Below are positions 1,470-27,000 of a DNA stretch of 64,000 nucleotides, piece by piece. Under the pieces are notes generated by a model that was not told the origin of the DNA, made no database searches, and saw only the letters and a list, made by a program, of their open reading frames with translations. The position numbers were made by a program, and so were the translations under genes. How positions within the stretch are numbered: the stretch's first letter is position 1; every line of letters starts with the position of its first letter. Source of the stretch: Oscillospiraceae bacterium (GTDB lineage Bacteria > Bacillota > Clostridia > Oscillospirales > Acutalibacteraceae); contig CACYHA010000003.1 in NCBI GenBank assembly GCA_902774035.1, positions 25,173-89,172 on the forward strand, given 5' to 3'.

Positions 1470-2201
1470 ATGCCGATCGACGGAATCAGTCTGCCGCAGC
1501 ATATTGCCATCATCATGGACGGCAACGGTCGCTGGGCAAAACAGCGCGGACTTGTGCGTACCGAAGGGCACAAAAAGGGCGCGGAGGTATTTCGAAAAAT
1601 TTGCCGCTACGCCTCGGACATCGGTGTGCGCTATCTGACCTTTTACGCGTTTTCCACGGAAAACTGGAAACGCTCAAAGCAGGAAGTCGGCGCGATCATG
1701 GATCTTTTGCGCAACTATCTGTTTGAGATGGAGGAACGCGAGCGTGAAAACGAGGGCAGCGGCTACCGCATCCGTTTCATCGGCGCGCGGGAGGGAATGC
1801 CTGCGGACATCGTCGAGCTGATGGATGCCGCCGAGGCGCGTTCCGCAGACAAAACGCACATGCACATCAACATCGCGGTCAATTACGGCGGCCGCGCGGA
1901 GATCGTGCACGCCGCAAGGCTGCTCGGCGAGCAGATCAAGGCCGGCGCTTTGCAGCCGGAGGAGATCACAGAAGAACGACTGTCCGCTCTGCTCTATACG
2001 GCGGATCAGCCGGACCCCGATCTGATCATCCGCCCCAGCGGGGAACAGCGGCTTTCAAATTTTCTTGTCTGGCAGTCGGCCTATGCCGAATTCTACTATG
2101 ACGACGTGCTCTGGCCGGATTTCACGCCTGAGGATCTCGATAAGGCGATCCTGGCCTATGCAAAACGCGACCGCAGATTCGGCGGCGTGCAATCACAATG
2201 A
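1470..2201 (+). CDS. uppS: Isoprenyl transferase (undecaprenyl diphosphate synthase)
   Basis: The 243-residue cis-prenyltransferase has the diagnostic MDGNGRWAKQRG motif near residues 14-25, whose Asp is catalytic, then RxxGHKxG-like residues and the C-terminal RPSGEQRLSNFLVWQ and YAEFYY signatures that bind the homoallylic diphosphate and magnesium. It makes the C55 lipid carrier for cell wall synthesis at the membrane. The start at 1470 follows AAAGGAG. It overlaps the unlikely upstream start of cdsA and sits in the canonical order frr-uppS-cdsA-dxr-rseP-ispG-polC, in which three genes (uppS, dxr, ispG) concern isoprenoid supply. Confidence 0.97.
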   Translation: MPIDGISLPQHIAIIMDGNGRWAKQRGLVRTEGHKKGAEVFRKICRYASDIGVRYLTFYAFSTENWKRSKQEVGAIMDLLRNYLFEMEERERENEGSGYRIRFIGAREGMPADIVELMDAAEARSADKTHMHINIAVNYGGRAEIVHAARLLGEQIKAGALQPEEITEERLSALLYTADQPDPDLIIRPSGEQRLSNFLVWQSAYAEFYYDDVLWPDFTPEDLDKAILAYAKRDRRFGGVQSQ

Positions 2202-2218
2202 GGAAGGGGGAGCTTTCT

Positions 2219-3127
2219 GTGGAAGACTCCGCAACGAAAAAGAAATTCCGTTTCAAAGGGGAACGCACCGCGTCCACCCTCGTCATCGTCGGCGTGCTGG
2301 CGGTCTATGTGGTGTCCATCCATCTGAACATCCATTGGCTGTACACGACCATTACGGCGCTTGTTGCCGCCGCGATCTGCTATGAACTGATCCATGTGGT
2401 CGGCTGCGAAAGCAAGCTGCTGTTCGGTCTGTCCATGGCCGTCAGCGCAGGCTATGTGTTTACGGTCGGGTTTCATATCACGATCCCGCATTTCCAGGTG
2501 ATCCTCAGCTTCTATCTTCTTCTGTTGCTGACGCTGGCGGTGCTGGATCATCGGCGGATTCGCTTTTTGCACGCGATCATGGCGTTTTTCGCATCCGTTT
2601 GCGTGACTTATGCGCTCTCGTGCTTTATCCGTCTGAACGATCTGCCCTATCTCAACGGCCGGTTTACGCATCTGGAGGGTCTGTTCCTGTTCTGGCTTTC
2701 CTTTACCTGCTCTTGGGTGACGGATGTGTTTGCTTTCCTTGTGGGACGCAAGATCGGCAAGCATAAAATGACGCCGGTCATCAGCCCGAAAAAAAGCTGG
2801 GAAGGCGCCGTTTTCGGAACGCTCATCACAGCCGCGATCAATGTGCTTGTGCTTCTGGGCTACACCCTTGTGGCAACAAAGCTCATGGGACGCTCAATGT
2901 TCTGGATGGAATCCCCGATCAAATATCTCTATATCGTTCCGGTTTCCGTCCTGCTTTCCGTTGTCGGAATGTTCGGCGATTTTTCCGCCTCTCTGCTCAA
3001 GCGCAATCTGGGCATCAAGGATTTCAGCAACCTTCTGCCCGGACACGGCGGCATAGTGGATCGGTTCGACAGTTGCCTGTTTGTCCTGCCGGTGCTCTAT
3101 GGTATTTTTAGCTTGATTTATGGATAA
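2219..3127 (+). CDS. cdsA: Phosphatidate cytidylyltransferase
   Basis: The polytopic membrane protein of about 302 residues ends with the CdsA signature region, including the FSASLLKRNLGIKDFSNLLPG segment and GGIVDRFDS. It makes CDP-diacylglycerol from phosphatidic acid and CTP. I chose GTG at 2219 because GGAAGGGGGA (2202-2211) stands eight bases before it. The alternative ATG at 2198 overlaps the uppS stop and has no ribosome binding site. Seven or more hydrophobic helices are visible. The N-terminal part shows little family identity, as is usual for CdsA. Confidence 0.93.
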   Translation: MEDSATKKKFRFKGERTASTLVIVGVLAVYVVSIHLNIHWLYTTITALVAAAICYELIHVVGCESKLLFGLSMAVSAGYVFTVGFHITIPHFQVILSFYLLLLLTLAVLDHRRIRFLHAIMAFFASVCVTYALSCFIRLNDLPYLNGRFTHLEGLFLFWLSFTCSWVTDVFAFLVGRKIGKHKMTPVISPKKSWEGAVFGTLITAAINVLVLLGYTLVATKLMGRSMFWMESPIKYLYIVPVSVLLSVVGMFGDFSASLLKRNLGIKDFSNLLPGHGGIVDRFDSCLFVLPVLYGIFSLIYG

Positions 3128-3158
3128 ACTATAAAATATTGGTAAGAGGCGAATCTCC

Positions 3159-4307
3159 ATGACAAAACGACTTTCTTTGCTTGGCTCCACGGGCTCCATC
3201 GGAACGCAGTGTCTCGACGTTGCTGAAAAAGCAGGGCTTGAGGTTGTCTGCCTTGCGGCGCACAGCAACAGCATCTTGCTGGAAGCGCAGGCGCGAAAGT
3301 TCCGCCCGGAACTGGTCGCGCTTGTGGACGAAGCCGCGGCAAAGGATTTGAAGGTGCGCCTTGCCGATACAAACATCCGTGTGCTTTCCGGTCTGCAGGG
3401 CGTGTGTGAATGCGCCGCCTTTGCGCACGCGGATACGGTGCTCAACAGCGTGGTTGGCATGGCCGGTCTTGCGCCGACCCTCGCGGCAATCGAAGCGAAA
3501 AAAACGATCGCGCTCGCCAACAAGGAAACGCTGGTTGCCGGCGGTGCGCTGGTGATGCGGCTCGCAAAAGAAAACGGCGTTTCGATCCTGCCGGTGGACA
3601 GCGAGCATTCCGCGATCTTTCAATGTCTGCAGGGGATGCACGACAAAGCGGAACTGAAATCGATTCTTTTAACAGCGTCGGGCGGCCCGTTCTTCGGAAA
3701 AACGAAGGCGGAGCTTGCCGGTGTGACCCTTGCCGAAGCGCTCCATCACCCCAACTGGAGTATGGGCGCAAAAATCACCGTGGACAGCGCCACGATGATG
3801 AACAAGGGCCTGGAACTGATCGAGGCCGTCTGGCTGTTCGGCGTTTCGCCGGAACAGATCCGGATCATCGTCCACCGGGAAAGCATCCTTCATTCCGCGG
3901 TGGAATTCTCCGATAACGCGGTCATCGCCCAGCTCGGTGTGCCCGATATGCGTGTGCCGATCCAGTACGCGCTGACCTATCCTGCGCGGATCGAGTCGCC
4001 TGTGAAGCGCCTGTCGCTGACCGAGCTCGGCACGCTGCATTTCTGCCTGCCGGATGAAGACACCTTCCGCTGCCTTCCGCTTTGCCGAAAAGCCATTGCA
4101 CGCGGCGGCCTCGCGCCCTGCGTCGTCAACGGCGCAAACGAGATGGCGAACCGGCTGTTCCGTAAAGGAAAGATCGGCTTTTTGCAGATCGCCGATCTGG
4201 TGGAAGGTGCGCTAGAAAATGTTGCAGGCAAGCAATCCTATACGCGCGAAGATATCTTTGCGGCGGATCAGGCCGCAAGAGACTATGTACTGAAAGCAAT
4301 GAGGTGA
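3159..4307 (+). CDS. dxr: 1-deoxy-D-xylulose 5-phosphate reductoisomerase
   Basis: The 382-residue enzyme converts DXP to MEP, the committed step of the MEP isoprenoid pathway, using NADPH and a divalent metal. The N-terminal GSTGSIG dinucleotide motif is at residues 9-15, followed by NKETLVAGG, the metal-ligand block VDSEHSAIFQ, and the HPNWSMGAKITVDSATMMNKGLE substrate region. Length matches the family. Another MEP-pathway gene, ispG, is three genes downstream. The stop overlaps the region of the rseP start, which suggests translational coupling. Confidence 0.97.
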   Translation: MTKRLSLLGSTGSIGTQCLDVAEKAGLEVVCLAAHSNSILLEAQARKFRPELVALVDEAAAKDLKVRLADTNIRVLSGLQGVCECAAFAHADTVLNSVVGMAGLAPTLAAIEAKKTIALANKETLVAGGALVMRLAKENGVSILPVDSEHSAIFQCLQGMHDKAELKSILLTASGGPFFGKTKAELAGVTLAEALHHPNWSMGAKITVDSATMMNKGLELIEAVWLFGVSPEQIRIIVHRESILHSAVEFSDNAVIAQLGVPDMRVPIQYALTYPARIESPVKRLSLTELGTLHFCLPDEDTFRCLPLCRKAIARGGLAPCVVNGANEMANRLFRKGKIGFLQIADLVEGALENVAGKQSYTREDIFAADQAARDYVLKAMR

Positions 4308-4312
4308 AAGCA

Positions 4313-5623
4313 TTGAACATTGCGCTTGCGGTCGCGCTGGCCGCTGTCTGGTCAAAGGTCTGGCCGTTTTTGGTGGCCGTGCTGTTTTTCGGCCTGATCA
4401 TTTTTATTCACGAGTTCGGACACTTCATCTTTGCCAAAGCGTTTGGCGTCAAGGTGAATGAATTTGCGCTCGGCATGGGCCCGACGCTTTTGAAAAAGCA
4501 GGGGAAAGAAACGCTCTACGCCCTGCGTCTGTTCCCCATCGGCGGCTTTTGCGCCATGGAAGGGGAGGACGAGAGCAGCGACGACGAACGCGCCTTCTGC
4601 AACAAAAAGCTCTGGCAGCGCATCATCATCGTCGCCGCCGGCGCAACCTTCAACATCATCCTCGGTCTCATCATCTGCACCTGCCTTGTCGGTTCGGAAC
4701 AGTATGTCGGAACGCAGGAGATCCTGCAGTTCCATGAAAGCGCCGTTTCCAATGCCGAGGGCGGTCTGCAGGTCGGCGACCGCATCCTGAAGATCGACGG
4801 CAAGCGCGTGTTTTCCAACGATGACATCTCCTTTTTGATGCTGCGAAACAACACCGGCGTCTATGACATGACGGTGAAGCGCGGTGGGGAAACGGTGCGT
4901 TTGCCCGAGGTGCATTTTTCCGTGCGCACCGGCGGCAACTTCTCCTATGACGAAAACAACGCCATCTCCGGTCTGAGCGCAAAAATGAAGCGCGCCGGGC
5001 TCAAAGACGGCGACGTGATCCTGACAGTCAACGGCGAAGAAGTGACCGACAACGAATCGCTTTCCGCCGCGATCCAAAAGGACAGCGACTTCGTGATCGA
5101 TTACACGGTGCGCCGCGGCGAAGAAACCGTGACGGTGGAAAAGGTCAAAATGGCAACCGTGACTGTCTTTGATTTTGTTTTGCTCGGCGTCGACAAAACC
5201 GTCGGCAACGTGCTGCTTGGCGGCGGACGTTATGCGCTGTCCATGTCCCGGATGGTTTATTTGTCGCTGTTCGATCTTTTGCGCGGTCACTACGGCCTCA
5301 GTGAGCTTGCCGGCCCCATCGGCACCGTTTCCGTGATTGCCGACATGGCGCAGGAAAGTGCAAAGAGCGCCGATCTGTCGGGACTGTTCACTATCATGGC
5401 GCTGATCACCATCAACATCGGTCTGTTCAATCTGCTTCCCATCCCGGCGCTGGACGGCGGACGGCTGTTCTTCATGCTCATCGAGCTGATCGCGCGCCGT
5501 CCCGTTCCCGCAAAATATGAAAACTGGATCCACGCGGCGGGCATGGTGCTGCTTTTGATCTTCATGGCGGTCATTTCCGCAAGCGACGTTTGGAAATGGA
5601 TCTCCGGCGTCGGGTTCTATTAA
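4313..5623 (+). CDS. rseP: RIP metalloprotease RseP/RasP (site-2 protease)
   Basis: An intramembrane zinc protease with HEFGH at residues 33-37 in the first membrane helix and the LDG motif (NLLPIPALDGGRL, Asp near residue 381) in the third. Between them are two apparent PDZ-like domains, roughly residues 125-205 and 220-285, whereas Bacillus RasP is normally described with one. It would cleave membrane-bound regulators such as anti-sigma factors or remnant signal peptides. I favour TTG at 4313 because GAGGTG lies six bases upstream; a GTG at 4304 is in frame but lacks a ribosome binding site. It overlaps or abuts dxr. Confidence 0.93.
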   Translation: MNIALAVALAAVWSKVWPFLVAVLFFGLIIFIHEFGHFIFAKAFGVKVNEFALGMGPTLLKKQGKETLYALRLFPIGGFCAMEGEDESSDDERAFCNKKLWQRIIIVAAGATFNIILGLIICTCLVGSEQYVGTQEILQFHESAVSNAEGGLQVGDRILKIDGKRVFSNDDISFLMLRNNTGVYDMTVKRGGETVRLPEVHFSVRTGGNFSYDENNAISGLSAKMKRAGLKDGDVILTVNGEEVTDNESLSAAIQKDSDFVIDYTVRRGEETVTVEKVKMATVTVFDFVLLGVDKTVGNVLLGGGRYALSMSRMVYLSLFDLLRGHYGLSELAGPIGTVSVIADMAQESAKSADLSGLFTIMALITINIGLFNLLPIPALDGGRLFFMLIELIARRPVPAKYENWIHAAGMVLLLIFMAVISASDVWKWISGVGFY

Positions 5624-5650
5624 GCCTGCAAAGAAGAGGTGATGCATACT

Positions 5651-5971
5651 ATGGCGTTGTTCGTTCATCTTTTTGTTGTTTTGCTCTTTGTGGTGCTGGC
5701 CGTTGTCTTTTGGCGCAGCAAGGGCGCTGCGCTGATCGCCGGGTATAACACTGCTTCCGAAGAAGAAAGATTGCAGACCGACGAAAATAAGCTGTGCCGC
5801 TTCATGAGCAAACTGATGCTTGCCCTAGCGGGCTGCTGGCTGGTGGCCGCGTCAAGCGAGCTGTTCCACAACACAGGGCTTCTCTGGACGGGGATCGCAC
5901 TGTTTCTTGTTGTGATCGTCGCCGGTTTGATCTATGCGAACACCGGCAACCGTTTTGAAAAAGATCAATAA
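5651..5971 (+). CDS. Small DUF3784-type membrane protein
   Basis: About 106 residues with three hydrophobic segments. The GAALIAGYNTASEEER motif after the first helix, followed by LCRFMSK, is typical of the DUF3784 family of uncharacterised Firmicute membrane proteins. ATG at 5651 is preferred because AAGAGGTG (5633-5640) is well spaced for it; upstream GTG 5639 and ATG 5642 overlap that site. It is inserted between rseP and ispG, which are otherwise commonly adjacent. Function unknown. Confidence 0.8.
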   Translation: MALFVHLFVVLLFVVLAVVFWRSKGAALIAGYNTASEEERLQTDENKLCRFMSKLMLALAGCWLVAASSELFHNTGLLWTGIALFLVVIVAGLIYANTGNRFEKDQ

Positions 5972-5995
5972 CCGAACTCTACAGGTGACGATATG

Positions 5996-7045
5996 ATGGA
6001 ACGTAGAAAAACAAAACAGGTGCGTGTCGGTTCACTTTTGATCGGCTCCGGTGCGCCTGTCTCCGTGCAGTCCATGCTGAATGTGGAGGCGCACGACATT
6101 TCCGGCAACGTAGCCCAGGCCAAAGCGCTGGAACAAGCCGGCTGCCAGATCATCCGCGCCGCCGTGCCCGATCTTGACGCCGTTTCGACCATCGCCGCGC
6201 TCAAGGAAGCGGTCAACGTACCCATCGTTGCCGACATCCATTTCAACCATAAAATCGCCCTTGCCTGCGCCGACGCCGGTGTGGACAAGATCCGCATCAA
6301 CCCCGGTAACATCGGCGCCGACGAAAACGTGAAGGCCGTGGCAGATAAATGCCGCGCCAAAGGTATCCCGATCCGCATCGGCGTGAACTCCGGCTCTGTG
6401 GAAAAAGAGATCCTTGCAAAATATGGCGCACCCACGCCCGAAGCCATGGTCGAAAGCGCCATGTACCATGTGCGGCTGCTTGAAAAGTTCGATTTTGACG
6501 ATATCGTCATCTCCATCAAATCGTCTTCCGTTCAGTCCATGATCGAGGCCTACCGTCTGGTTGCCGCGCAGTGCGATTATCCGCTGCATCTCGGCGTCAC
6601 CGAATCCGGCACGGAGCGTATGGGCCTTGTCAAATCTGCTGTTGGCATCGGCACCCTTCTGATGGAGGGCATCGGCGACACGATCCGCGTTTCGCTGACC
6701 GCTGATCCCGTCAAAGAGGTCGCCGCAGGGTTCGATATCCTTGCCGCGGCCGGGTTGAAAAACGACCGCCCGACCCTTGTCTGCTGCCCGACCTGCGGAC
6801 GCACGAAGATCGATCTGATCTCGCTTGCGCACCGGGTTGAGGAACAGCTGAAAAACGTGCATAAACCGATCACGGTCGCCGTGATGGGCTGCGTGGTCAA
6901 CGGGCCCGGAGAAGCGCGAGAGGCAGACATCGGCATCGCCGGCGGCGACGGCTGCGGGCTGCTGTTCAAAAAAGGAGAGATCATCAAAAAGGTTTCGGAG
7001 GGCGAGCTGCTCAGCGCGCTCATGGAAGAAATCGCGTTGTTATAA
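5996..7045 (+). CDS. ispG: 4-hydroxy-3-methylbut-2-en-1-yl diphosphate synthase
   Basis: The 349-residue IspG (GcpE) catalyses the penultimate MEP-pathway step, using a 4Fe-4S cluster and reduced ferredoxin or flavodoxin. The N-terminal barrel begins VRVGSLLIGSGAPVSVQSM. The three cluster cysteines are visible as CCPTCGRT and MGCVVNGPGEA near the C-terminus. AGGTGA lies seven bases before ATG 5996; ATG 5993 is an alternative. In this organism the electron supply could link to the ferredoxin pool served by the RNF complex encoded downstream, but that is inference. Confidence 0.96.
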   Translation: MERRKTKQVRVGSLLIGSGAPVSVQSMLNVEAHDISGNVAQAKALEQAGCQIIRAAVPDLDAVSTIAALKEAVNVPIVADIHFNHKIALACADAGVDKIRINPGNIGADENVKAVADKCRAKGIPIRIGVNSGSVEKEILAKYGAPTPEAMVESAMYHVRLLEKFDFDDIVISIKSSSVQSMIEAYRLVAAQCDYPLHLGVTESGTERMGLVKSAVGIGTLLMEGIGDTIRVSLTADPVKEVAAGFDILAAAGLKNDRPTLVCCPTCGRTKIDLISLAHRVEEQLKNVHKPITVAVMGCVVNGPGEAREADIGIAGGDGCGLLFKKGEIIKKVSEGELLSALMEEIALL

Positions 7046-7061
7046 AAGGAAACCGGAAACT

Positions 7062-10000
7062 ATGGAGTTCAAATTGCTTTTTGCTTCGGTGCCCGCGGCG
7101 GCCGATCTGCTGCCGGATGCGACCGAAGTTCAGTCCGTGAATCTGCAAAGAGAAGCAAGGGTACTGGATGTGACCCTTGCTTTGCCGCGTCTTGTTACGG
7201 GAAAAGAGGTCTGCGCCGCCGAAGAAGCGCTGAAAGAGGCGCTCGATCTTTCTGCGGTGCATCTTGACGTCACCATGCCGCCGCAGTGCTTTTCCGAAGC
7301 GTACTTTTCCACCCTTGTTTCCGAGGCGAAGGAGGAGATCGCAGCTTCCAACGGCTTTTTCAACGACGCCTCCTGCGCGCTGCAGGGCAATGATCTTGTG
7401 ATCACACTGCGCCACGGCGGGGCCGATGTGCTGCGCCGCTGCGGGTGCGATGCGTTCATGGAAAAGCTGATCGCCCGGCGCTTCAGCCGCACGGTCACCG
7501 TTGTTTTTGTCGGAACCGAGGTCAACATCGACGACGAAGATGTGGTCGCCATGATGAAAAACGCGGAGAAAACGAATCTGCGCATAAAAGGCGGCGATTC
7601 GTCTGAGATACATCAGAAAAAGTCGAAAGCACACCGCATGGTCGAAGGCGTTCCGCTGTATCTTGAAACGGCGAAGCCGATCTACGGCAGCAAGATCTCG
7701 AAGGATCCGAAACCGCTTTCCGAGGTCACGGCGGAAGACGGCTCCTGCACAGTTTGGGGCACCGTGTTCAAATTCGATTCCCGCGAAACGAAAGATAAGC
7801 GCTCCTGCATCATCACGTTCAATATCACCGACAACACCTACGCATATACCTGCAAAATCTTCGAGCGCAAGGAAAACTGCGATCAATTGCTCGATAAGAT
7901 CAAGGACGGCGTAACGCTGCTTTTGCGCGGCGACTTGACCTATGACAAATTCTCCGGTGAAAATGTGATCACACCCCGGGCGATCAGCCTTGTGGAAAAG
8001 ATCCCCCCTGTGGATGACGCCGAAGAAAAGCGCGTGGAGCTGCATCTGCATACAAAGATGTCGATGATGGACGGCATGACCGATCCGGCCGTGCTTGTCA
8101 AACGCGCCATCGCCTGGGGACATAAAGCCATCGCCATCACCGACCACGGCGTTGTGCAGGCTTATCCGGAGGCTGTCGCTGCCGCCGGAAACAAGATCAA
8201 GGTCATTCTCGGCATGGAAAACTATTACATCGACGATACCGAGGAACCGTTTGAGATCTGGAAAAAAGACAAAAAGCCGCAGTATTACCACATGATCCTG
8301 CTCGCGCGCAACAATACCGGTCTGAAAAACCTCTACCGCCTGATCTCAAAATCCAATCTGCAGTACTTCCACCGCAAGCCGATCATTCCGAAAAGCGAAC
8401 TGATCAAACACCGAGAGGGACTGATCGTCGGTTCCGCCTGCGAGGCCGGCGAGGTCTACCGCGCCATTGCCGGGGGAAAGAGCGACGAAGAGATCCTGAA
8501 AATCGCTTCGTTCTATGACTATCTGGAGATCCAGCCCTGCGGCAACAACGCCTATATGATCGCCAGCGACCGGTTTCCGCAGGTGCAGGGCATCTCCGAT
8601 ATCCAGGCGATGAACAAAAAAGTGATCCACACGGCGGATGCGCTCGGAAAGATGACGGTTGCAACCTGCGACGTACACTTCATCGATCCCGAAGACGCGA
8701 TATATCGCGCGATCCTGATGGCAGGACAGGGCTACCCCGACGCAGACCGTCAGGCGCCGCTGTTCTTCCGCAACACGAAGGACATGCTTGCCGAATTTGC
8801 CTATCTCGGCGAGGAGACGGCAAAGGAGGTCGTGGTCACCAATCCGAACCGCATCGCGGATATGATCGAGAACATTCAGCCCATCCCGAGCGGAAATTTC
8901 CCGCCCAGTATCGAAGGGGCGGACGATGAACTCAAACGCCTTTGCTGGGAAAAGACAAAGCGCCTCTACGGCGATCCCGTGCCCGAGTATGTGGCAAAAC
9001 GTCTGTCCCGCGAGCTGGATTCCATCATCCACCACGGCTTCGGCGTGCTTTACATGATCGCCCAGAAGCTCGTGAAGAACTCCGAGGATCACGGCTACCT
9101 TGTCGGCTCGCGCGGTTCCGTCGGCTCCTCCTATGTTGCGAACGCCGCCGGGATCTCCGAAGTCAATCCGCTGGCGCCGCATTACCGCTGCCCGAAGTGC
9201 TGTCACACGGAATTCTTCCTGAACGGCGAGGTCGGCTCCGGTTACGATCTTCCGCCGAAAGCCTGCCCCGATTGCGGCACACCGATGGAGCGCGACGGCC
9301 ACGACATTCCCTTTGAGACCTTCCTCGGCTTCAAGGGCGACAAAAGCCCCGATATCGACCTTAACTTCTCCGGCGAATATCAATTCTATGCCCATCGCTA
9401 TACCGAGGAGCTGTTCGGCATCACCCACGTGTTCAAGGCCGGTACGATCGCGACCGTTGCGGATAAAACTGCGTACGGCTTTGTAAAAAAATATCTGGAA
9501 GACCGCGGGAAAACCGTTTCCCGCGCGGAGGAAGACCGGCTCACGATCGGCTGTACCGGCGTGAAACGAACGACCGGTCAGCACCCGGGCGGCATGGTCG
9601 TTGTGCCGAACTGCTTTGACGCCGAAGACTTTACGCCTGTCCAGCATCCGTCCGACGACGCGAGCAAGGGCATGATCACCACGCATTTCGACTTCCATGC
9701 CCTGCACGATACCATTCTGAAGCTCGACAATCTCGGCCACGATGTGCCGACCCTCTATAAGCATCTCGAAGACCTGACCGGCATCCCGGCCATGCAGACC
9801 GACATCTGCGACCCGAAGATCTATCAATTGATGGAGTCGCCCGAACCGCTGAACGTGACAGCCGAGGACATCGATTGTCCGACGGGCACGCTCTCCATTC
9901 CGGAAATGGGCACAAACTTTGTCATTCAGATGCTCCTTGACGCCAAGCCGAAAAACTTTTCCGATCTGCTGCAGGTCTCCGGCCTTTCCCACGGCACGGG

Positions 10001-10787
10001 CGTGTGGCTCGACAACGCCCAGGATTTGATCCGTCAGGGCATCTGCGACATTTCCAACGTCATCGGAACGCGCGACAGTATCATGGTTTACCTGATGCAT
10101 AAGGGTCTTGATCCGAGTATGGCGTTCAAAATCATGGAGATCGTCCGCAAGGGCAAGGCGACGAAGCTGCTGACCGATGAACACAAGCAGGCGATGAAAG
10201 AGCACGGCGTGGAGCAGTGGTACATCGATTCCTGCATGAAGATCCAGTACATGTTCCCGAAGGCGCACGCCGCCGCCTATGTCAGCGCAGCGCTGCGGCT
10301 CGGCTGGTACAAGATCTACCGTCCCCTGGAATACTACGCGGCCTACATGACCGTGCGCGGCGGCGACATTGACGCTGTGGCTGTTCTGGATGGCAGGGCG
10401 GCGGTCAAACGCCTGATGGAAGAGATCAAGCACAAGGGCAAGGAAGCCCCGCCGAAAGAACAGAACATGTATCCCGGCCTGCAGGTCGTCAACGAAATGA
10501 TGGCACGCGGGATCGAGTTTTTGCCTGTGGACATCTACAAATCGGAAGCGACCACCTATAAGATCGAAGACGGCAAGATCCGTATGCCGTTCTCCGCGCT
10601 CTCCGGCGTCGGAGAAAGCGCGGCGGTTGCCCTCGCCGAAGCCCGAAACAGCGGAGAGAAATTCGTTTCTGTGGATGATTACGCCGCAAAGAGCGGCGCG
10701 ACCTCCGCAGTGATCGACGCGCTGCGGCTGGTCGGCGCGCTCAAGCATCTGCCCGAAACCCGGCAGATCAGCCTGTTTGATTTCTGA
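7062..10787 (+). CDS. polC: PolC-type DNA polymerase III alpha subunit lacking the exonuclease domain
   Basis: The 1241-residue Gram-positive replicative polymerase shows, in order: an N-terminal domain (about 1-220), an OB fold (about 221-315), a PHP domain starting HLHTKMSMMDG (about 328), a zinc region with CPKC and CPDC near residues 710-745, and the catalytic block SPDIDLNFSGEYQ (about 765) with its metal-binding aspartates. Ordinary PolC is about 1430 residues because a DEDD 3'-5' proofreading exonuclease is inserted in the PHP domain. Here GMENYYIDD (about 384-392) is followed after only 15 residues by YYHMILLARN, so that insert is missing without any frame break. ATG follows AAAGGA. 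Confidence 0.96.
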   Translation: MEFKLLFASVPAAADLLPDATEVQSVNLQREARVLDVTLALPRLVTGKEVCAAEEALKEALDLSAVHLDVTMPPQCFSEAYFSTLVSEAKEEIAASNGFFNDASCALQGNDLVITLRHGGADVLRRCGCDAFMEKLIARRFSRTVTVVFVGTEVNIDDEDVVAMMKNAEKTNLRIKGGDSSEIHQKKSKAHRMVEGVPLYLETAKPIYGSKISKDPKPLSEVTAEDGSCTVWGTVFKFDSRETKDKRSCIITFNITDNTYAYTCKIFERKENCDQLLDKIKDGVTLLLRGDLTYDKFSGENVITPRAISLVEKIPPVDDAEEKRVELHLHTKMSMMDGMTDPAVLVKRAIAWGHKAIAITDHGVVQAYPEAVAAAGNKIKVILGMENYYIDDTEEPFEIWKKDKKPQYYHMILLARNNTGLKNLYRLISKSNLQYFHRKPIIPKSELIKHREGLIVGSACEAGEVYRAIAGGKSDEEILKIASFYDYLEIQPCGNNAYMIASDRFPQVQGISDIQAMNKKVIHTADALGKMTVATCDVHFIDPEDAIYRAILMAGQGYPDADRQAPLFFRNTKDMLAEFAYLGEETAKEVVVTNPNRIADMIENIQPIPSGNFPPSIEGADDELKRLCWEKTKRLYGDPVPEYVAKRLSRELDSIIHHGFGVLYMIAQKLVKNSEDHGYLVGSRGSVGSSYVANAAGISEVNPLAPHYRCPKCCHTEFFLNGEVGSGYDLPPKACPDCGTPMERDGHDIPFETFLGFKGDKSPDIDLNFSGEYQFYAHRYTEELFGITHVFKAGTIATVADKTAYGFVKKYLEDRGKTVSRAEEDRLTIGCTGVKRTTGQHPGGMVVVPNCFDAEDFTPVQHPSDDASKGMITTHFDFHALHDTILKLDNLGHDVPTLYKHLEDLTGIPAMQTDICDPKIYQLMESPEPLNVTAEDIDCPTGTLSIPEMGTNFVIQMLLDAKPKNFSDLLQVSGLSHGTGVWLDNAQDLIRQGICDISNVIGTRDSIMVYLMHKGLDPSMAFKIMEIVRKGKATKLLTDEHKQAMKEHGVEQWYIDSCMKIQYMFPKAHAAAYVSAALRLGWYKIYRPLEYYAAYMTVRGGDIDAVAVLDGRAAVKRLMEEIKHKGKEAPPKEQNMYPGLQVVNEMMARGIEFLPVDIYKSEATTYKIEDGKIRMPFSALSGVGESAAVALAEARNSGEKFVSVDDYAAKSGATSAVIDALRLVGALKHLPETRQISLFDF

Positions 10788-18034: not shown

Positions 18035-21000
18035 ATGAAAAGCAAAAAAGTCCTGGCCGTTTTGCTGGCAGTTCTGATGCTTCTCTCCTCCATGACCGTG
18101 GCGTTTTCCGTGTTCGCTGCAGATGTGGCCGAGGCCGCGTCTGAAGAGGCAGCACAGGAAGTCACCTACACGAAGGAAGAGCTGCAGGAAATTTCCGACA
18201 AATACGGCTACGATCTGACGAACGATCAGATCGACGCGATCCTCACCGGAGAAACGACACTCTCTGAGGCCGTCGGCGACAAAGAGGAAGATGCGATCCT
18301 CATTGTTGAGCTCGAAGGTCAAGGTGCGCTTGCAGGCAGCGACAGCTCCGAAGCGACCAGCGAGAGAGTGCAGAATGCGCGCGACAGCATTGAAAAGGTG
18401 CAGCGCGACATCCAGAAGAAGATCGCGAAGAAAGTGATGAAGAGCAAGGACCTTGATGTCAAGTATTCTTATTCACTTTTGACCAACGCTTTCGCAATGA
18501 TCGGCAAACCCTCTCAAATCAATGAAATCGCTGCGATCAAAGGCGTCAAGTCCGTCTACACTGCGCCGATTTGGACGCCGATTCCGACCGACGCCGAGCC
18601 CGACGCGATCTCCACCGAGCACGCGGCGAACTACTTCACCGGCAGCGACAATACCACGACCAGCAAAGGTACGGGTACGGTTGTCGCCATCATCGACACC
18701 GGCCTTGACTGCACCTATTCTTATAACAGCAGCTCGAAGCTCGTGACGACGACCTTCCATGAGGCGTTTAGCAATGATGTTGAAAACCCGAAGCTTGACA
18801 AGACGACGGTGCAGAACATCTATGTGAACAAATCCCACGCCTACAAGCAGGCGCCCACAAACTCCAATATGCGCACCGCGTATAAGAACAGCATCTACCG
18901 CAGCACGAAAGTGCCCTATGCGTTCAGCTATTCCGACGACAACATGTTTGCGGGCCATACCTACAACTCCAACCTTGAAACATGGTCTTCCTGGAGCTGG
19001 GCGTTCAGCTATTTCAATGACGACGAGCAGGGCGACCACGGTACCCATGTTGCCGGTATCACCGCCGGTTACGCAGTGGATGACGAAGGCGCCGTCACAT
19101 TTGAAGGCGTTGCGCCCGACGCGCAGATCCTTGTCATGAAGGTCTTCGGCAACAAGCGTGCCGGTAACTATGCCGATATCCTTGCCGCTGTGGAAGACTC
19201 CGTCCTCTTTGGCGCAGACGTTATCAACCTTTCCCTCGGCTCCTGGGCCGGCTTCAGCTACGGCGGCGACCGCCCGAGCTATGACGCCGCGTTTGAGGCT
19301 GCTGCCGACGCCGGTGTGGTGGTCTGCGCCGCTGCCGGTAACGACTACACCGCCGCGAAGGGTACCCTTTACGGCAACGACAAGGCCCTTGCCTCCAACC
19401 CGGACAACGGCATTGTCAGCGCTCCCGGTTCCTATGACGACAACCTTGCCGTTGCGTCCATGGCGAGCAAAGATTACTATGCAAAATCCGTCCAGATCGG
19501 CGGAAGAAACATTGCGTTCACCAACAACGCGTCTGATTCCTCCCGCAGCATTGAAAAACATGCCGGAACAACCAAGGACTACGTTGTCTTGAAAGACGAG
19601 GACGGCAATATGCTGACCGGTACGGATGGCGACTTTGAAAAGTACGGCAAAAAACTGTATGGCAACTACGTGGTCATTCGCCGCGGCCAGACCTTTACGG
19701 AGACTGCGCAGCGCGCGGCTGACGCCAGCGCGATCGGCTTGATCGTCTGCGACCATTCCGACGGCTCCCTCGTCAACATGATGGAGAACACGGATGTCAA
19801 GATCCCCGCGATCTTCATTTCCAAGGCGGACGGCGATTTCATCCTTTCGCTGGAATCCGATCCGGCCACCACCCACAAGATCAACATCACCAACACCAAC
19901 GCCTATACCGTGAACCCGGATGCAGGCAAAATGTCTGACTTCTCCTCCTGGGGCGTCACGCCTGATCTGAAGCTGAAGCCCGAAATCACCGGTTACGGCG
20001 GCAATGTGTTCTCCACGCTGAAGGGCAACAATTACGGTCTGATGAGCGGTACCTCCATGGCCACGCCGTATCTTGCCGGTGTGTCCGCGCTGGTTGCGCA
20101 GAGAATCAAGGAGATGACCACTGGTTCCCTGACAAGCGCCGAAGCTGCGCTGAAGGTTTATGAAACCGCCGCCACAGCAGCGAATATTACGAATTATTAC
20201 GGTTACAACCTTACGAACCAATACATCAACGCGATCGGCGCTGCATCGAAGGTGAAGTATACAGAGGCGTTCAAAAACAAGATTGAAGCCGCAAGAGCTT
20301 CTTACGATGCACTTGATGCAGCCCAGCAGGGCAAGGTCACTGCCGCCCAGCTCAAGAAGCTGACCGACGCGGAAGCGAAATGGGCGACGCTTGAAGCGAC
20401 TGCTCGCGCCAACGAGACTGACAACGCCGCTGCCGATGCAGTGTCCGCGCTCATCGCCGCCATCGACACGGCTGCGCCGACCGCTGAAAGCGTTGCTGCG
20501 GCAAGAACTGCTTATGACGCTTTGACTGCCGCGCAGAAGAAGCTGGTGCTCAACCTTACGGTTCTGACCTATGCCGAGAACAGACTGAATAATCCTTCGG
20601 CGAACGCAGCTGCTGTTGACACGCTGATCACCAACATAGGCGCAGTTACCGCTTTCAACTCCGCAACGATCTACAAGGTAAAGCTTGCGAGAGAAGCCTA
20701 TGAAAAACTGAACGACACTGAGAAGGCACTCGTCCAAAAGCTCGGCATTGAAAATGTCGACAAGCGAGACTTTGCCAAATCTGTCATGATGAGCACGGCA
20801 ACGCCTGTCATCGACGAAGAAAACGCGATGCCGTACTCCCCGCGCCGCCAGGGCGCAGGTCTCGTCAACATTGATGCGGCTCTTGCTTCCAAAGCGTATG
20901 TGACCGTTCCGGGCAGCCCGACTCCGAAGCTCGACCTCGGCGACGACAAGGCCAAGACCGGCGTCTATGAGATGACCTTCAACGTGGTCAACATCGGCGA

Positions 21001-24000
21001 CGTGGATTTGACCTTCGACGTTTCCGCGACCGTCCAGACCGAAAAGGTCGCAATCGAGGATGTCTCCTACCAGACCCGCCGCATCGATCCCGAAAAGGCC
21101 GCCGCGTTCAAAGAGACCGGCCTTGAATTCCGCGAAAAATCCTATGGCGAACGCGTTTATGCGATCGACGAGTTGGAAGACGTGAAGTTCATGAGCGGCG
21201 AACCTTATGACCTGACCGCGCTGTCCACCGTGACCGCGAACACCGTCACCGTCCCGGCCGGTCAGACCGTTGCCGTGACCGTGACCGTCACCCTTGGCGA
21301 CGACGCGAAGGCCTACATGGACGAAAACTTCGTCAACGGCATCTATGTGGAAGGCTTCATTAAGCTGACCAGCCAGACCGAAGGCCAGCCCGACCTGAAT
21401 GTTCCCTACATGGGCTTCTACGGCGACTGGACCCAGGCTCCGATGCTCGACGAAGGCACATGGGAAGATAACTTCTTGGGCAACCCGGTACATCCGCAGA
21501 TGGCTGTTTCCACCGGTTCGAACGTCTACTGGGGATCCATGGTCGGTTATTACCTCTATCCGCTCGGTTTGCCGAACTCCAGCGGCACGTATAATCCCTA
21601 TGACCTTTACAACGATGGCGCGACTTACATTCCCGACGTTCGCAACGTCTTTGGCGGCGAGCGTCAGCTCCACTCCGACATGCTCGGCGCCGAGCTTGGC
21701 CTGCTGCGCTCTGCGGGAACGATCAAGTTTGAAGTGAAAAACACGCAGACCGGCGAGGTCTATTACACAGCGAACACGACGAACGTCCGCAAGTCCTTCT
21801 ATTACAGCGAATCCGTTGGCATGGTCAATCCCGGCTACTTCGGCGACAGCGACGTTTTGATGTTTGACGGCAAGATCCAGGGCACGCAGACATTTATCCC
21901 GCCCGGAACGCAGGTGACCTATACTGCCACCGTTCTGCCAGATTACGGCAGCGAGGCGGATGTTCACAACGTCAACAACACCTTCTCGTTCAAAGCCTAC
22001 TATGACACGCAAAAACCGACGATCGACGCGGTGCAGTGCTATCTGGATGAAAATACCGGCGATGTGATGCTCCATATGGCAGCCTCCGACGATTTCTTTG
22101 TCAGTGAAATCAACTATGCAATTTGTGGCTATGACGCCGGCGGCACGGAAGATACGGTTTATCTGCACACCATGTTTGAACCGGAGCACCCGGGCGATAC
22201 CGTGGAAGAAACGATCAATGTTTCCGAATGGGCAAGAGAGGGCGGCCTGGTTCAGGTGCGTAATGTTGAGATTGACGGCGATGACTTCACCCAGAAGGAA
22301 ACGGAGAACCCGCATCCCGCTTACGGTGGGCTCTATACTAGCACATACTATCTTAGTTTCTTCGATAACGTAAAGGTAAGCTGTGTGACCGACGTTCTTC
22401 CGGTTGGCTCCGAAGCGCAGCTCAACGTGGACTTTACCTACGGTGAAAAGCTGCTCGGCGGCACACCGCTGATTGTTGACCATAACAACAGCGACTTTGG
22501 TTTGGAAGAAGATTTCATCTATTCCACCTCCAATCCCGACGTCCTGCGCGTTTCCGCGGAAGGCAAGCTGATTCCGGTTTCCGCCGGCTACGCTGATGTG
22601 ACCGCGACCGGCCGCTACGGCAAGGCGAACAACTCCATGCGCATCCGCGTGATCGAAGATCCCGTTCAACTGCAGATCGCTGCCGCGAATGACGGCGATA
22701 CCGTTACCTTGACTGAGGACGCCTATGATTCCTCGCTTCTGATCAACAAGGACATCGTTCTTGACCTGAACGGCCACACCATCCACGGCATTGACGGCTA
22801 TCCCGCCATCCGTGTGATCGGCGGCAACGTCACCATCAAGAACGGCTCCGTGGACGCGAAGTTCAGCGAAGATTCCCAGAACGCGCTTCTGACCGACATT
22901 CTGGAAGACAACGCTGCGGCGATCAAGGTTGAGGGCGGCAATGTCACACTCGAAGGCCTGAACATCAAGGGCGCAACCTTCGTCCGTGAAGGCGAAACGA
23001 TCATCGGCGGCTCCGCTGTGGTTCAGTCCGGTGCTTCCAACCTGACCGTGAAGCTCTGCGACCTTGCGGGTCTCTACGCGGTCAACAACGCCGCTTCCAC
23101 CGGTTCGACGACCTTTGTTTCCGGCAACTTCGAGGGCATCCTCGGTTCCGTGGCCGATATGAAGAAGGTCACCAAGAGCGAAGGCTCCGAATTTATCGAT
23201 ATCACCAACACCCTTGCGGGCGACGATCTCAGCTATCTCGGCACCATCGAAGGCGGCTCCGCCAGCTATATCCTGCCGCCGTCTGATCTTGTTTTCACTG
23301 CTGAACAGATCGCGCAGGCTGTTCCTTCGGAAAACAGCGCAATTGCCTATGACGCTGAAAAAGGCTGTGCAACCTTCACCATGAGAACGGCCGGCGATTC
23401 CGCAAACGCGACGGATTACTATCTGAAGTTCCCGGGTGTGAACATCAATGCCGAAGATTATGCCTTTGCTGCAATTATTTCCGGCGGTGCACCGAGTGGC
23501 TTCACCTATCATAAGCCGAGCTTCAGTAATTCGAGCACATTCTATAACAATTATCTCTCCGGTGAATTAAACTGGACGAGGCAATCCGAGCTTGATGGCG
23601 GGGTTTACACCTACGTGAAAGCGCTTTCTGCCTGCAGAGAATTTGCCGGCGAGGTCACCGATCTGTATTTCTGCCCGGGCGGCGACAGCACCTATGGCGT
23701 GAACGCGAACGATCAGTTCGATTTCTATGCGATCGGTTTCTTCAACAACAAGGCTGACGCCATGTCCTTCGCCTATGGTACCGCGAACGCCTACACGAAC
23801 AACCTCAAGGTTGCCGCGCCGCAGAGCTTCAACACCCAGCTCATCATTGACGGCACGACCCTGAACGTCAACACCTCCTTCCCGGATGAATCCGACGGCA
23901 AGTACAAGTGGACGGCGAACGAGCTGTCGCTCTACACCAGAACCGTGAACGGCGACAACACCTTCAACGATGAATTCGTGGAATCCAAGCCGATCACGCC

Positions 24001-27000
24001 GGATGCAAACGGCGACGTCTCCGTCAGCTTCGAGGGCATCGACCCGTCCAAGGCCTATGTGGTCAAGGTCAACTTCGCCCTTTCGCTCACCGCGGAAGAT
24101 AAGACGAACTTCTTCACCGTTTCCGAAGCTTCCGCTTCCGCTCTGGTCAAGGCGTTCCCGGATCTCCTTGACGAAATGATGGGCGTGAACGAGATGGAAG
24201 AAGCGGTCACGAACCTTGCGAACTTCTTCCTGTATGAGATGCGTCTTGGCTTCGTGGAGCGCGATGCGCGTCACTATGACTGCCCGCTCGGCCCGGCGTA
24301 CGCGAAGAACTATCCGTACATCGACGAGTATCCGAACATCATCTGCGCAAACTCCAACAACAGCTACACCACCTGGACGGCCTATTGGGATAAGAAGACC
24401 TTCAATGAATTCATCGGCTGGGATGATGTTTCCTGGAACGGTGAAGTAACGCGCAAGTCCTACGCGATCCTGTTCGCCTCCATCCTCGGCGACGCAAAGA
24501 TGGTCGATTTGATGGCCAATCTTGAAGAGTCTGTTCCGGCGGCGACCTGGGAGATGCTTGATCCGGTTCTTCGCACCGGTAACTTCGGCCAGTACGGTTC
24601 CATCCCCGCCTATAAGGAACAGCTTGCCGCGCTGAAGGCTGCCGCTGTGGGCGCAACGCCGCGCGAAGAGCTCGTGAACGGCCTGACCTACCTTGCCAAC
24701 AACTTCATCTCGCTGTACGCTTCTGTGTTGGGCGTCATCAACAGCCTTTACACGCCGGGCGCTGAGTTCAAATCCTACAGCGATCCGACGGCGAATGACA
24801 GCTTGATGAACGTGCTTGCCGGCAAGCAGATCACCACGACTTACAACTTCGGCGGTCACAACGACAGACAGGCCAGAATGATCGAGCTGGTTGACGCCTG
24901 CTACGCCGCGAACGACTACACCCAGAACGCAAAGGCCGGTCTCATGAGCGCCATGAACGCTGCCCTTTACGGCACGCTTGCCAGCTATGCGACCGACGCT
25001 GCCGATCTGATGAACCTGTACTTCGACAGCAATCCGATCGAAGGCGGCGTGATCGACCTCGGCAGAAACGCTGAGTACGAATCCGAAGCCAACTATGACG
25101 GCTATATCGAGTATGAGCTGAACGGCGGCAAGAACAACGACGCCAACCCGATCGGTTATCAGCGTCTGCTGCCTGTCACCTTCGCGGAACCGACCAAAGA
25201 AGGCTACACCTTCGCTGGCTGGTACACCACGGCTGACTTTGCCGACGGCACCGAAATCACCGGTACCACTGCAACCACCGAAGGCGACCTGACCGTCTAT
25301 GCGAAGTGGACCATCAACGTCTACACCATGACCTTCATGCTCGGCGACAATGTGGTTGACACCGTCTCCTATACCTACGGCGAACAGACCGCTCCCACAA
25401 GCAACCTGAATGTGACCGACGGCCTGACCTTCAAGTATTGGTACGGCGACGATTCCTCCAAGGCTTATGATTTCGGTCCGATGCCCGCGCACGACGTGGT
25501 TCTGAAAGCGCAGCTCAGCTACATGTCCCTCGACTCCTTCGACAAGGACGGCGACGTCTATGTCTGGCCGAAGGATGACAACGCATCCCTGCGTCTGACA
25601 GTCGACAGAGACTGCGTGATCGACTTTAACGGCAAGATCGTCTCCAACATGAACGACCTTGCAATCATCGTGATTGAAAAGGGCGCCAAAGTCACCATCA
25701 AGAACGCTATCTTTGCGCCCGCGGATTACCTTGGCACCTCCGATGAAAATTACACCATCTTTGTGGACAGCAATGCCGACGGCAACCGCTCTGTGCTCAC
25801 GCTTGAAAACTGCGTGGTCAAGGGTGCTGTGAGCAGAACGCCCGACGGCTCCTTCGCCTCCTGCAGCGCGATCAAGCTGAAGAACGGCTCGCTGAAGATG
25901 AACAACTGCGTCGTCACCGGTATGTATGCGGTGGACAACACGAAGTACAGCACGGTCACCTATACGCCCGACGTCACCTACGGCACCGGTGTGTATGCCG
26001 GCGTTGTCAAGACCTTTGTTTCGAACACGAATGTTGTGATGAGCACAGGCAGAGTGATCGATGCAAGCGCATTTGTGAGCGACGCTCCCGCAGCCGATGC
26101 TTATGCGAACCGCGTGATCGTTGTTGCGCCCAGTGAGTTCAATGTCAACACCTTCGATTTCGAATACCTGCCCGACAATGACGAGGTTCAGATCAATCCG
26201 GTGTCTGTGGATGCTCTGGCGCTTCCGGATGGCTCCGACTTCACCTATGTTCCGACTGCAGCAGGCTTTGACGATACTGTCAATCCGCTGGTTGACGGCA
26301 GCGTGACGATCGGCGGCTTCATGGTTGGCACGCATACGATGAAGGCGAACTACAGCGTTGCTGTGAACCTTGCTGCTGAGACTGCCGCGTTCATCTATGA
26401 TCTGGATGATGCGCTTACTGCTGCTGCCAAGGCTGAGATCTCCACCTTTGACGCACAGCTTCCCGAGTACGACAGAATCATCACAAAGTGGAACAACAAC
26501 AAGGATAAGATCATCTCCAAGTTCTCCCAGTATGCGGACAATGCGCTTCTGAGCCCGTATCTGAAAGAGATGCGCGAAGCCATCGACAACATCAACGGCA
26601 CCGGCACCAAGGAAGGCATCCTGCCGAGACTCGAGGCAATGCTTGACGCTTACAAGGCGCTCACGACCGACGCGCAGAAGCTTGCCTGGCTGCTTGAAAA
26701 CAAGAGCGCCGTGATCGCTCTGACGATTGATCTTCGCGACAACGTGGATGTGATCTGGAATTCCTGCGTCATGCTGAACGCTCTGGCGAACACCTTCCTC
26801 GGCGCGGACTACACCGACAAGCTGATTCAGGTCAAAGAAATTTATGAAGAAGTCGGCGCACATTGCGAGGCTGTTGAAAAGCTTCCGAGCTTTGCTGCAT
26901 CCAATTATGCCGCCGCCTCCGATAAGACTGCGTTTGTCAACACGCTGCTTGGCGCTTCCGCTGCATATGGCGGCGAGAAGAAAGTGGAGGGTCTGACCGA

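Follow-up and report, generated by a model that had tools for sequence, protein, structure and literature searches.

Introduction

PolC is generally described as a replicase with a built-in DEDD proofreader. Here we analyze a polC gene whose product lacks that exonuclease domain (Exo); it lies on the forward strand at positions 7062..10787 of a 64-kb stretch of DNA from an Oscillospiraceae bacterium (contig CACYHA010000003.1), which we refer to as the window. The closest described systems are the exo-less PolCs reported in Clostridia and Negativicutes by Timinskas et al. 2014 (PMC3919608), where, according to the text of that paper, they account for 6% of PolCs and 16% of PolC+DnaE1 systems. 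As far as that text describes them, they resemble the present protein in having no Exo insertion, in the pairing of PolC with DnaE1, and in the conservation of the PHP ligands in the PolC group. The exo-less architecture is thus already published. Among the matches listed in a literature search for PolC without Exo, PMC3919608 alone looked relevant by its title.

Two structures provide further points of comparison. The canonical PolC 9qpc matches our PolC in two segments that flank the Exo region, and shares with it the OB, PHP, palm, fingers and helix-hairpin-helix (HhH) regions. The Geobacillus PolC chain 3f2b is also without Exo and carries a GSGSG stretch in its place, apparently an engineered deletion; the natural PolC studied here therefore resembles that crystallized construct. 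According to the text of PMC5636811, the DEDD domain of PolC is inserted in a loop beside the PHP nuclease site; in Gka PolC one PHP ligand is changed, with no exonuclease there, whereas the DnaE1 of Mycobacterium tuberculosis proofreads with a nine-ligand PHP site, an activity that was measured. The mycobacterial enzyme has the same nine-ligand site as our PolC, with a loop alongside, but it is of the DnaE type, and its activity is measured where that of our PolC is predicted. A 2026 survey of bacterial DNA polymerases (PMC12926913) maps PHP and DnaQ proofreaders; its text, supplements aside, does not single out genomes with an exo-less PolC and no DEDDh protein. The high frequency and the recurrence of exo-less PolCs, and the existence of genomes in which RNase_T has no match, all described below, were likewise not found in the text of PMC3919608 or PMC12926913, supplements aside.

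Results

Absence of the exonuclease domain

The gene is one open frame that encodes 1241 residues, with an ATG start and a TGA stop, and its product passes the curated PolC cut-offs (NF001688, 1440.9 bits against a cut-off of 873; TIGR01405, 1312.2 bits against 1043.45). An earlier note on this DNA had pointed to a short junction in the PHP domain and to the lack of DEDD motifs in the frame, and both observations hold. The segment GMENYYIDD (residues 384-392) is separated from YYHMILLARN (from residue 408) by 15 residues, encoded at 8238..8282, precisely where other PolCs carry an Exo domain of about 190 residues. At E<=1 the Pfam matches of the chain include PHP, Pol3 alpha, fingers and HhH, and RNase_T is not among them. 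We also constructed a PolC Exo profile from the Exo domains of 48 exo-containing PolCs. This profile matches 68/68 exo-containing PolCs at E<=3.3e-63, but finds nothing in 122 exo-less frames at E<=0.01, and nothing in our PolC (P0001) at E<=100 when filters are disabled.

The size of the deficit agrees with its position, as had been proposed. The spacing between the PHP ligands E386 and H410 is 23 residues in our PolC and 10-40 (median 23) in 118 exo-less PolCs, as opposed to 197-219 (median 213) in 68 exo-containing PolCs. Similarly, the distance from PHP to the GSRGS motif is 357 residues, versus 542-545 in the exo-containing relatives L100, L105, L106, L108 and L112-L114 (handles such as these are our own labels for loci, genomes and families). 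An Exo inserted in PHP is called a hallmark of PolC, although 6% lack it in PMC3919608; because it is absent here, the protein belongs to the published exo-less variant rather than to canonical PolC. Judging from these sequences, the loss of Exo from this PolC is near certain. Its interpretation as a clean domain loss is supported as well, in that the flanking domains are intact, relatives have the same gap, and exo-less PolCs branch from among exo-containing ones.

Distribution in the genus, the order and the phylum

In the genus, 33/34 genomes (own included) have a long PolC match, while G033 has just a 55-residue piece. All 30 genus loci that were fetched (own included) show the gap, with PHP-to-GSRGS distances of 354-357. 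One genome, G001, has two full-length PolC matches (G001:C5 and G001:C14), 74% and 61% identical to ours and both of exo-less length; its contamination of 4% may explain the pair.

The note had proposed mapping Exo across the order, and this was done with classes assigned by profile span and frame length and counted by hand. A match to the PolC model is found in 128/147 genomes, of which 16 are exo-less, 111 are exo-containing and 1 is unreadable (G175). The 16 exo-less PolCs (our own gene and 15 others) were confirmed by sequence. They fall in four families: our own, in part; f2, in all nine genomes drawn; f19, represented by genus g26; and f24, with a single genome. Three irregular loci were noted in passing. 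In L133 (G090:C13) an exo-containing PolC is divided between two frames, one of 683 and the other of 799 residues. L134 (G065:C9) and L135 (G146:C52) are short, exo-less second PolC-like frames of 829 and 900 residues that lack the HhH/clamp part at the C terminus and whose PHP ligands are degenerate; the main PolC of both genomes has Exo.

For the phylum, 219 genomes were drawn with a requested completeness of at least 90%, and our own genome was added; 163/219 have a PolC match. A hand count of 150 of these 163 genomes classed 81 PolCs as exo-less and 66 as exo-containing, with 3 truncated, which puts the exo-less share at 81/147 classifiable PolCs among the matches listed. When 45/147 were checked by sequence (20 exo-containing, 25 exo-less), all agreed with their class. 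Thus, from their sequences, exo-less PolCs look common in this group. This share is far higher than the 6% of PolCs, or 16% of PolC+DnaE1 systems, given in the text of Timinskas et al. 2014, but the sampling differs too, because PolC+DnaE3 systems (Bacilli) are about twice as many in the PMC3919608 set. Separately, PolC-like genes were seen in a phage collection, among the best ten of 881 records, in unannotated faecal 'Bacteriophage sp.' contigs (MT836562, MT837681 and others); they are 48-57% identical over most of their length and are probably bacterial DNA.

Recurrence on the PolC tree

A quick tree without bootstrap was computed from the PolC core of 136 chosen rows, with the Exo columns removed. 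Its root was placed on three rows that we label Bacilli-type because they score highly against the model; the outgroup rows carry Exo. L031, L033, L082 and L110 were left out, as were L124, L133, L134 and L135; L002 and L003, which are pieces of our own gene, and exact duplicates were dropped. On this tree the Exo state changes 15 times, 12 of them on starred (well-supported) branches. If no regain of Exo is assumed, 21 losses are required, or 12 once weak branches are merged.

In a second tree, a 97/97 branch separates 38 embedded Exo domains from 32 solo exonucleases; the embedded sample comes mostly from this order, the bootstrap is not settled and some long branches meet. The Exo insertion point is identical in the aligned rows listed. 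A shared insertion point, together with embedded Exos that form one group, favors one insertion followed by repeated loss, and the pattern of Exo states in these sequences is therefore best read as repeated loss.

Fission of Exo into a separate gene is not supported for the sampled lineages, since the solo exonucleases of f2 and f19 lie outside the 38 embedded Exos (97/97). A residue signature of Exo loss was also sought and rejected: 590 columns were screened and the 14 best tested in independent pairs. The nearest to a signature is position 476 (D/E), with a median p of 0.06; the rest are weaker.

The PHP metal site of PolC and DnaE1

The PHP domain matches PF02811 with 116.5 bits over residues 326-485. 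Its first part (8031..8237) contributes the ligands H328, H330, D361, H362 and E386, and its second part (8283..8681) contributes H410, C460, D537 and H539, as assigned from the Pfam match and the ligand columns. All nine ligands, which the note had suggested checking, are intact, and the site conforms to the pattern HHDHEH[C/H]DH of PHP proofreading exonucleases. The same HHDHEHCDH set is present in 117/118 exo-less main PolCs, the exception being L258, with a change of D to E. Four frames were excluded from this set: L124 and L133, which are truncated or split, and two second copies with degenerate sites, L134 and L135. Six further exo-less PolCs also have all their ligands intact. Among exo-containing PolCs, 65/68 have HHDHEHCDH and 3/68 have HHDHEHCNH, with N for the last D.

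The partner polymerase was examined in the same manner. Our own genome has one DnaE-type match, above the NF005298 cut-off (G000:C28), which pairs PolC with DnaE1. The PHP site of the main DnaE1 is intact in 28/28 genomes, and the E386-H410 loop of our PolC is close in length to that of DnaE1 (20 residues in most). Two second DnaE copies, L295 (G272) and L296 (G202), have HHDHEHCNH, the same change of the last D to N as in Bacilli-type PolCs.

Candidate replacement exonucleases and MutS

Our own genome encodes one DEDDh protein (L034:1489-2799; 436 residues; RNase_T, 71.4 bits), with the DEDDh exonuclease at its N terminus; Pfam matches nothing in its C-terminal half. Two patterns tried for a clamp-like motif found none in it. 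The protein is patchy in the genus, being related to proteins of some members and without a counterpart in others. With PF00929, nothing is found in 5/12 genus genomes (our own was searched apart), and with TIGR00573 at E<=10 nothing is found in 7/18.

The PF00929 search of 23 exo-less order genomes gave a match in 17 and none in 6. In each of 19 exo-containing order genomes the PolC Exo is matched, and in 13 of them PF00929 gives a further match. Enrichment of solo RNase_T proteins with Exo loss was accordingly rejected (17/23 versus 13/19, Fisher p 0.74). PF00929 has a match in 23 of the 35 exo-less phylum genomes searched and none in the other 12, so that in the two sets together 18/58 exo-less genomes are without an RNase_T match. 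Six of the 12 phylum genomes are single-contig (G198, G300, G272, G367, G343 and G194), and the PolC of all 12 is exo-less by sequence, with its ligands intact. TIGR00573 at E<=10 finds nothing in 15/18 genomes without an RNase_T match; the remaining three give E 0.17 (G300) and E 0.0018 in a 905-residue frame (G367 and G343). Judged by eye, this frame in G343 (L297, G343:C1:1714000-1717500) resembles a DinG-type helicase with a decayed exonuclease part, which seems to have lost its acidic residues.

Individual lineages present a different picture. In the exo-less genus g26 of f19, a solo DEDDh exonuclease of 176-207 residues is encoded in 3/3 genomes (L198, L199 and L203), and no match of such size and strength was found in the 2 exo-containing f19 genomes searched. 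From its sequence, this enzyme is a candidate trans proofreader. Family f2 has a solo exonuclease clade of its own. As a general replacement, however, a stand-alone exonuclease is not supported by these sequence searches.

MutS is found above the cut-off in 29/30 genomes. In G235, which is exo-less and without an RNase_T match, it is in pieces with stops (G235:C1:1009119-1011168), while it is whole in three other f44 genomes; this genome may represent a natural mutator or a sequencing fault.

Domain layout and gene neighborhood

We identify the gene as the chromosomal polC of a genus of rumen/gut Clostridia. Its domains follow the PolC-type order, with OB N-terminal to PHP, then Pol3 and (HhH)2, and residues 218-1240 are collinear with 3f2b. 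The PolC N-terminal II-like region (residues 80-151; 7299..7514) is a weak assignment (PF11490, 16.2 bits, below the cut-off of 26.3). The OB-fold region (about residues 218-315; 7713..8006) is recognized by collinearity with 3f2b and by strands in the predicted model; PF01336 gives 15.5 bits, below its cut-off. Further downstream, within the PF07733 match (residues 623-815), lies a PDIDLNF motif (residues 763-769; 9348..9368), which we take to hold the polymerase active-site aspartates. The HhH region (residues 1150-1235; 10509..10766) matches PF14579 with 52.3 bits (cut-off 25.6). The C-terminal QISLF (residues 1235-1239; 10764..10778), located by motif search, is presumably the sliding-clamp motif. 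A clamp motif in PolC is mentioned in the text of PMC3919608.

A predicted model of residues 205-700 has a mean predicted local distance difference test score (pLDDT) of 86, but 73 for the block in which the junction mostly lies. A fold search with this model ranks PolC 3f2b first, followed by other PolC and DnaE chains; the lower ranks hold PHP phosphoesterases and weak, unrelated OB-containing chains, and nothing new.

Upstream of polC, at 1470..7045 on the same strand, lie in order uppS, cdsA, dxr, an M50/rseP-like protease, a 110-residue frame and ispG (GcpE), all but the 110-residue frame assigned by Pfam. We take this order to resemble that of other Firmicute polC loci. An Rfam search of the 64-kb window returned nothing at gathering scores. 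Elsewhere in the window, a frame of 3198 residues (18035-27631, forward strand), known from the list of open reading frames only, resembles, on visual inspection, a secreted protease of the subtilisin type that carries long repeats.

Discussion

We propose that the DEDD exonuclease was lost in its entirety, in an ancestor of this PolC, from the loop that joins the PHP ligands E386 and H410. What remained would be a loop of DnaE1-like length (23 residues versus mostly 20) and a PHP metal site that is still complete. The two polymerases, PolC and its partner DnaE1, would then each proofread at the fork with their own PHP site, and MutS repair would mend the remaining errors. Taken as a whole, we consider this explanation probable, albeit by a modest degree. 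We infer the part assigned to PolC from its ligands, from the lack of alternatives and by analogy with the DnaE1 precedent; the PHP site would have to cut 3' ends, and that cutting would have to maintain fidelity. The earlier note had left fidelity to either a DnaQ-like exonuclease or the PHP domain. Of these, the PHP domain is favored, its nine ligands being intact, while the DnaQ-like enzyme fails as a general answer, given that our own genome has the L034 protein but 7/18 genus genomes have no TIGR00573 match.

Several observations weigh against this proposal. Within the order, the ligands are intact in 98/98 exo-less PolCs but also in 48/48 exo-containing ones; their intactness is therefore permissive and no mark of a takeover. 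The 14 columns most linked to loss gave no convincing sign test in independent pairs, and the 3'-5' nuclease role of the PolC PHP domain is one that we infer. In addition, our own genome holds a solo DEDDh protein and is only 85% complete, and RNase_T matches are present in the majority of exo-less genomes, i.e., in 17/23 and 23/35. Non-homologous or very diverged exonucleases would escape our searches, and genome incompleteness could explain some of the absences (G011 is 87% and G057 86% complete).

The main rival to PHP proofreading by PolC is that DnaE1 is the main replicase and PolC an accessory enzyme whose proofreading is dispensable, an idea raised by Timinskas et al. 2014 (PMC3919608), who also note DnaE1-only Clostridia. 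The intact PHP site of DnaE1 agrees with this idea, and family f10 of the same order (G042, G067, G086, G102, G116, G129, G142, G156 and G170), which is apparently without PolC, fits it too: in 8/9 genomes (83-98% complete) only DnaE-type matches are found, and the ninth, G129, has a broken relic, a frame-shifted exo-less PolC on a 4.4 kb contig (L224). This relic suggests that in f10 the loss of Exo was followed by the loss of PolC, although that contig may be a contaminant of G129. A dispensable enzyme should, however, decay more often than is seen. A long PolC match is kept in all but one of the genus genomes, its PHP ligands are conserved, and the clamp motif is present in 113/122 exo-less frames; some of the misses are truncated frames. 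We regard this rival as unlikely, if the most credible of the alternatives. Less probable again is proofreading of PolC in trans by a separate DEDDh exonuclease, in the manner of epsilon with E. coli DnaE. The 436-residue protein of our own genome, the g26 enzymes and the f2 clade speak for it, but the genus members without an RNase_T or TIGR00573 match, the lack of overall enrichment with Exo loss, and the clamp-like motif not found with two patterns in the 436-residue protein all argue against it, as does the position of the solo enzymes outside the sampled PolC Exo domains.

It is also conceivable that Exo was originally absent and that related lineages acquired it on several occasions, by insertion or by re-insertion through recombination. 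State counts alone cannot separate gain from loss, and the exo-containing L100 and L112-L114 are placed among exo-less rows; nevertheless, with one insertion point in the rows listed, embedded Exos that form one group (mostly from this order) and exo-containing outgroup rows, such a history seems quite improbable. As to an assembly deletion or a mis-joined frame, our genome is in 48 contigs and incomplete, as noted above, which speaks for such an error. Because the gap is common to the 30 genus loci, and is found in many other assemblies, this explanation, which the earlier note had named among possible refutations, is in effect refuted.

A broader proposition is that the replisome of many Clostridia-related lineages has dropped DEDD proofreading altogether, that their PolC proofreads through the ancestral PHP site, and that this state was reached many times independently. 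We advance it tentatively, at somewhat less than even confidence. If true, a PHP-proofreading PolC would be the PolC counterpart of mycobacterial DnaE1. In some relatives, to judge from their genomes, this older, built-in metal site looks to be the only recognizable proofreader left. Provided that Exo is missing from the majority of PolCs in an even sample of the phylum, and that some single-contig genomes have no RNase_T-family match, such species would allow a direct test of proofreading by the PHP site of PolC and of fidelity at a fork served by PolC and DnaE1.

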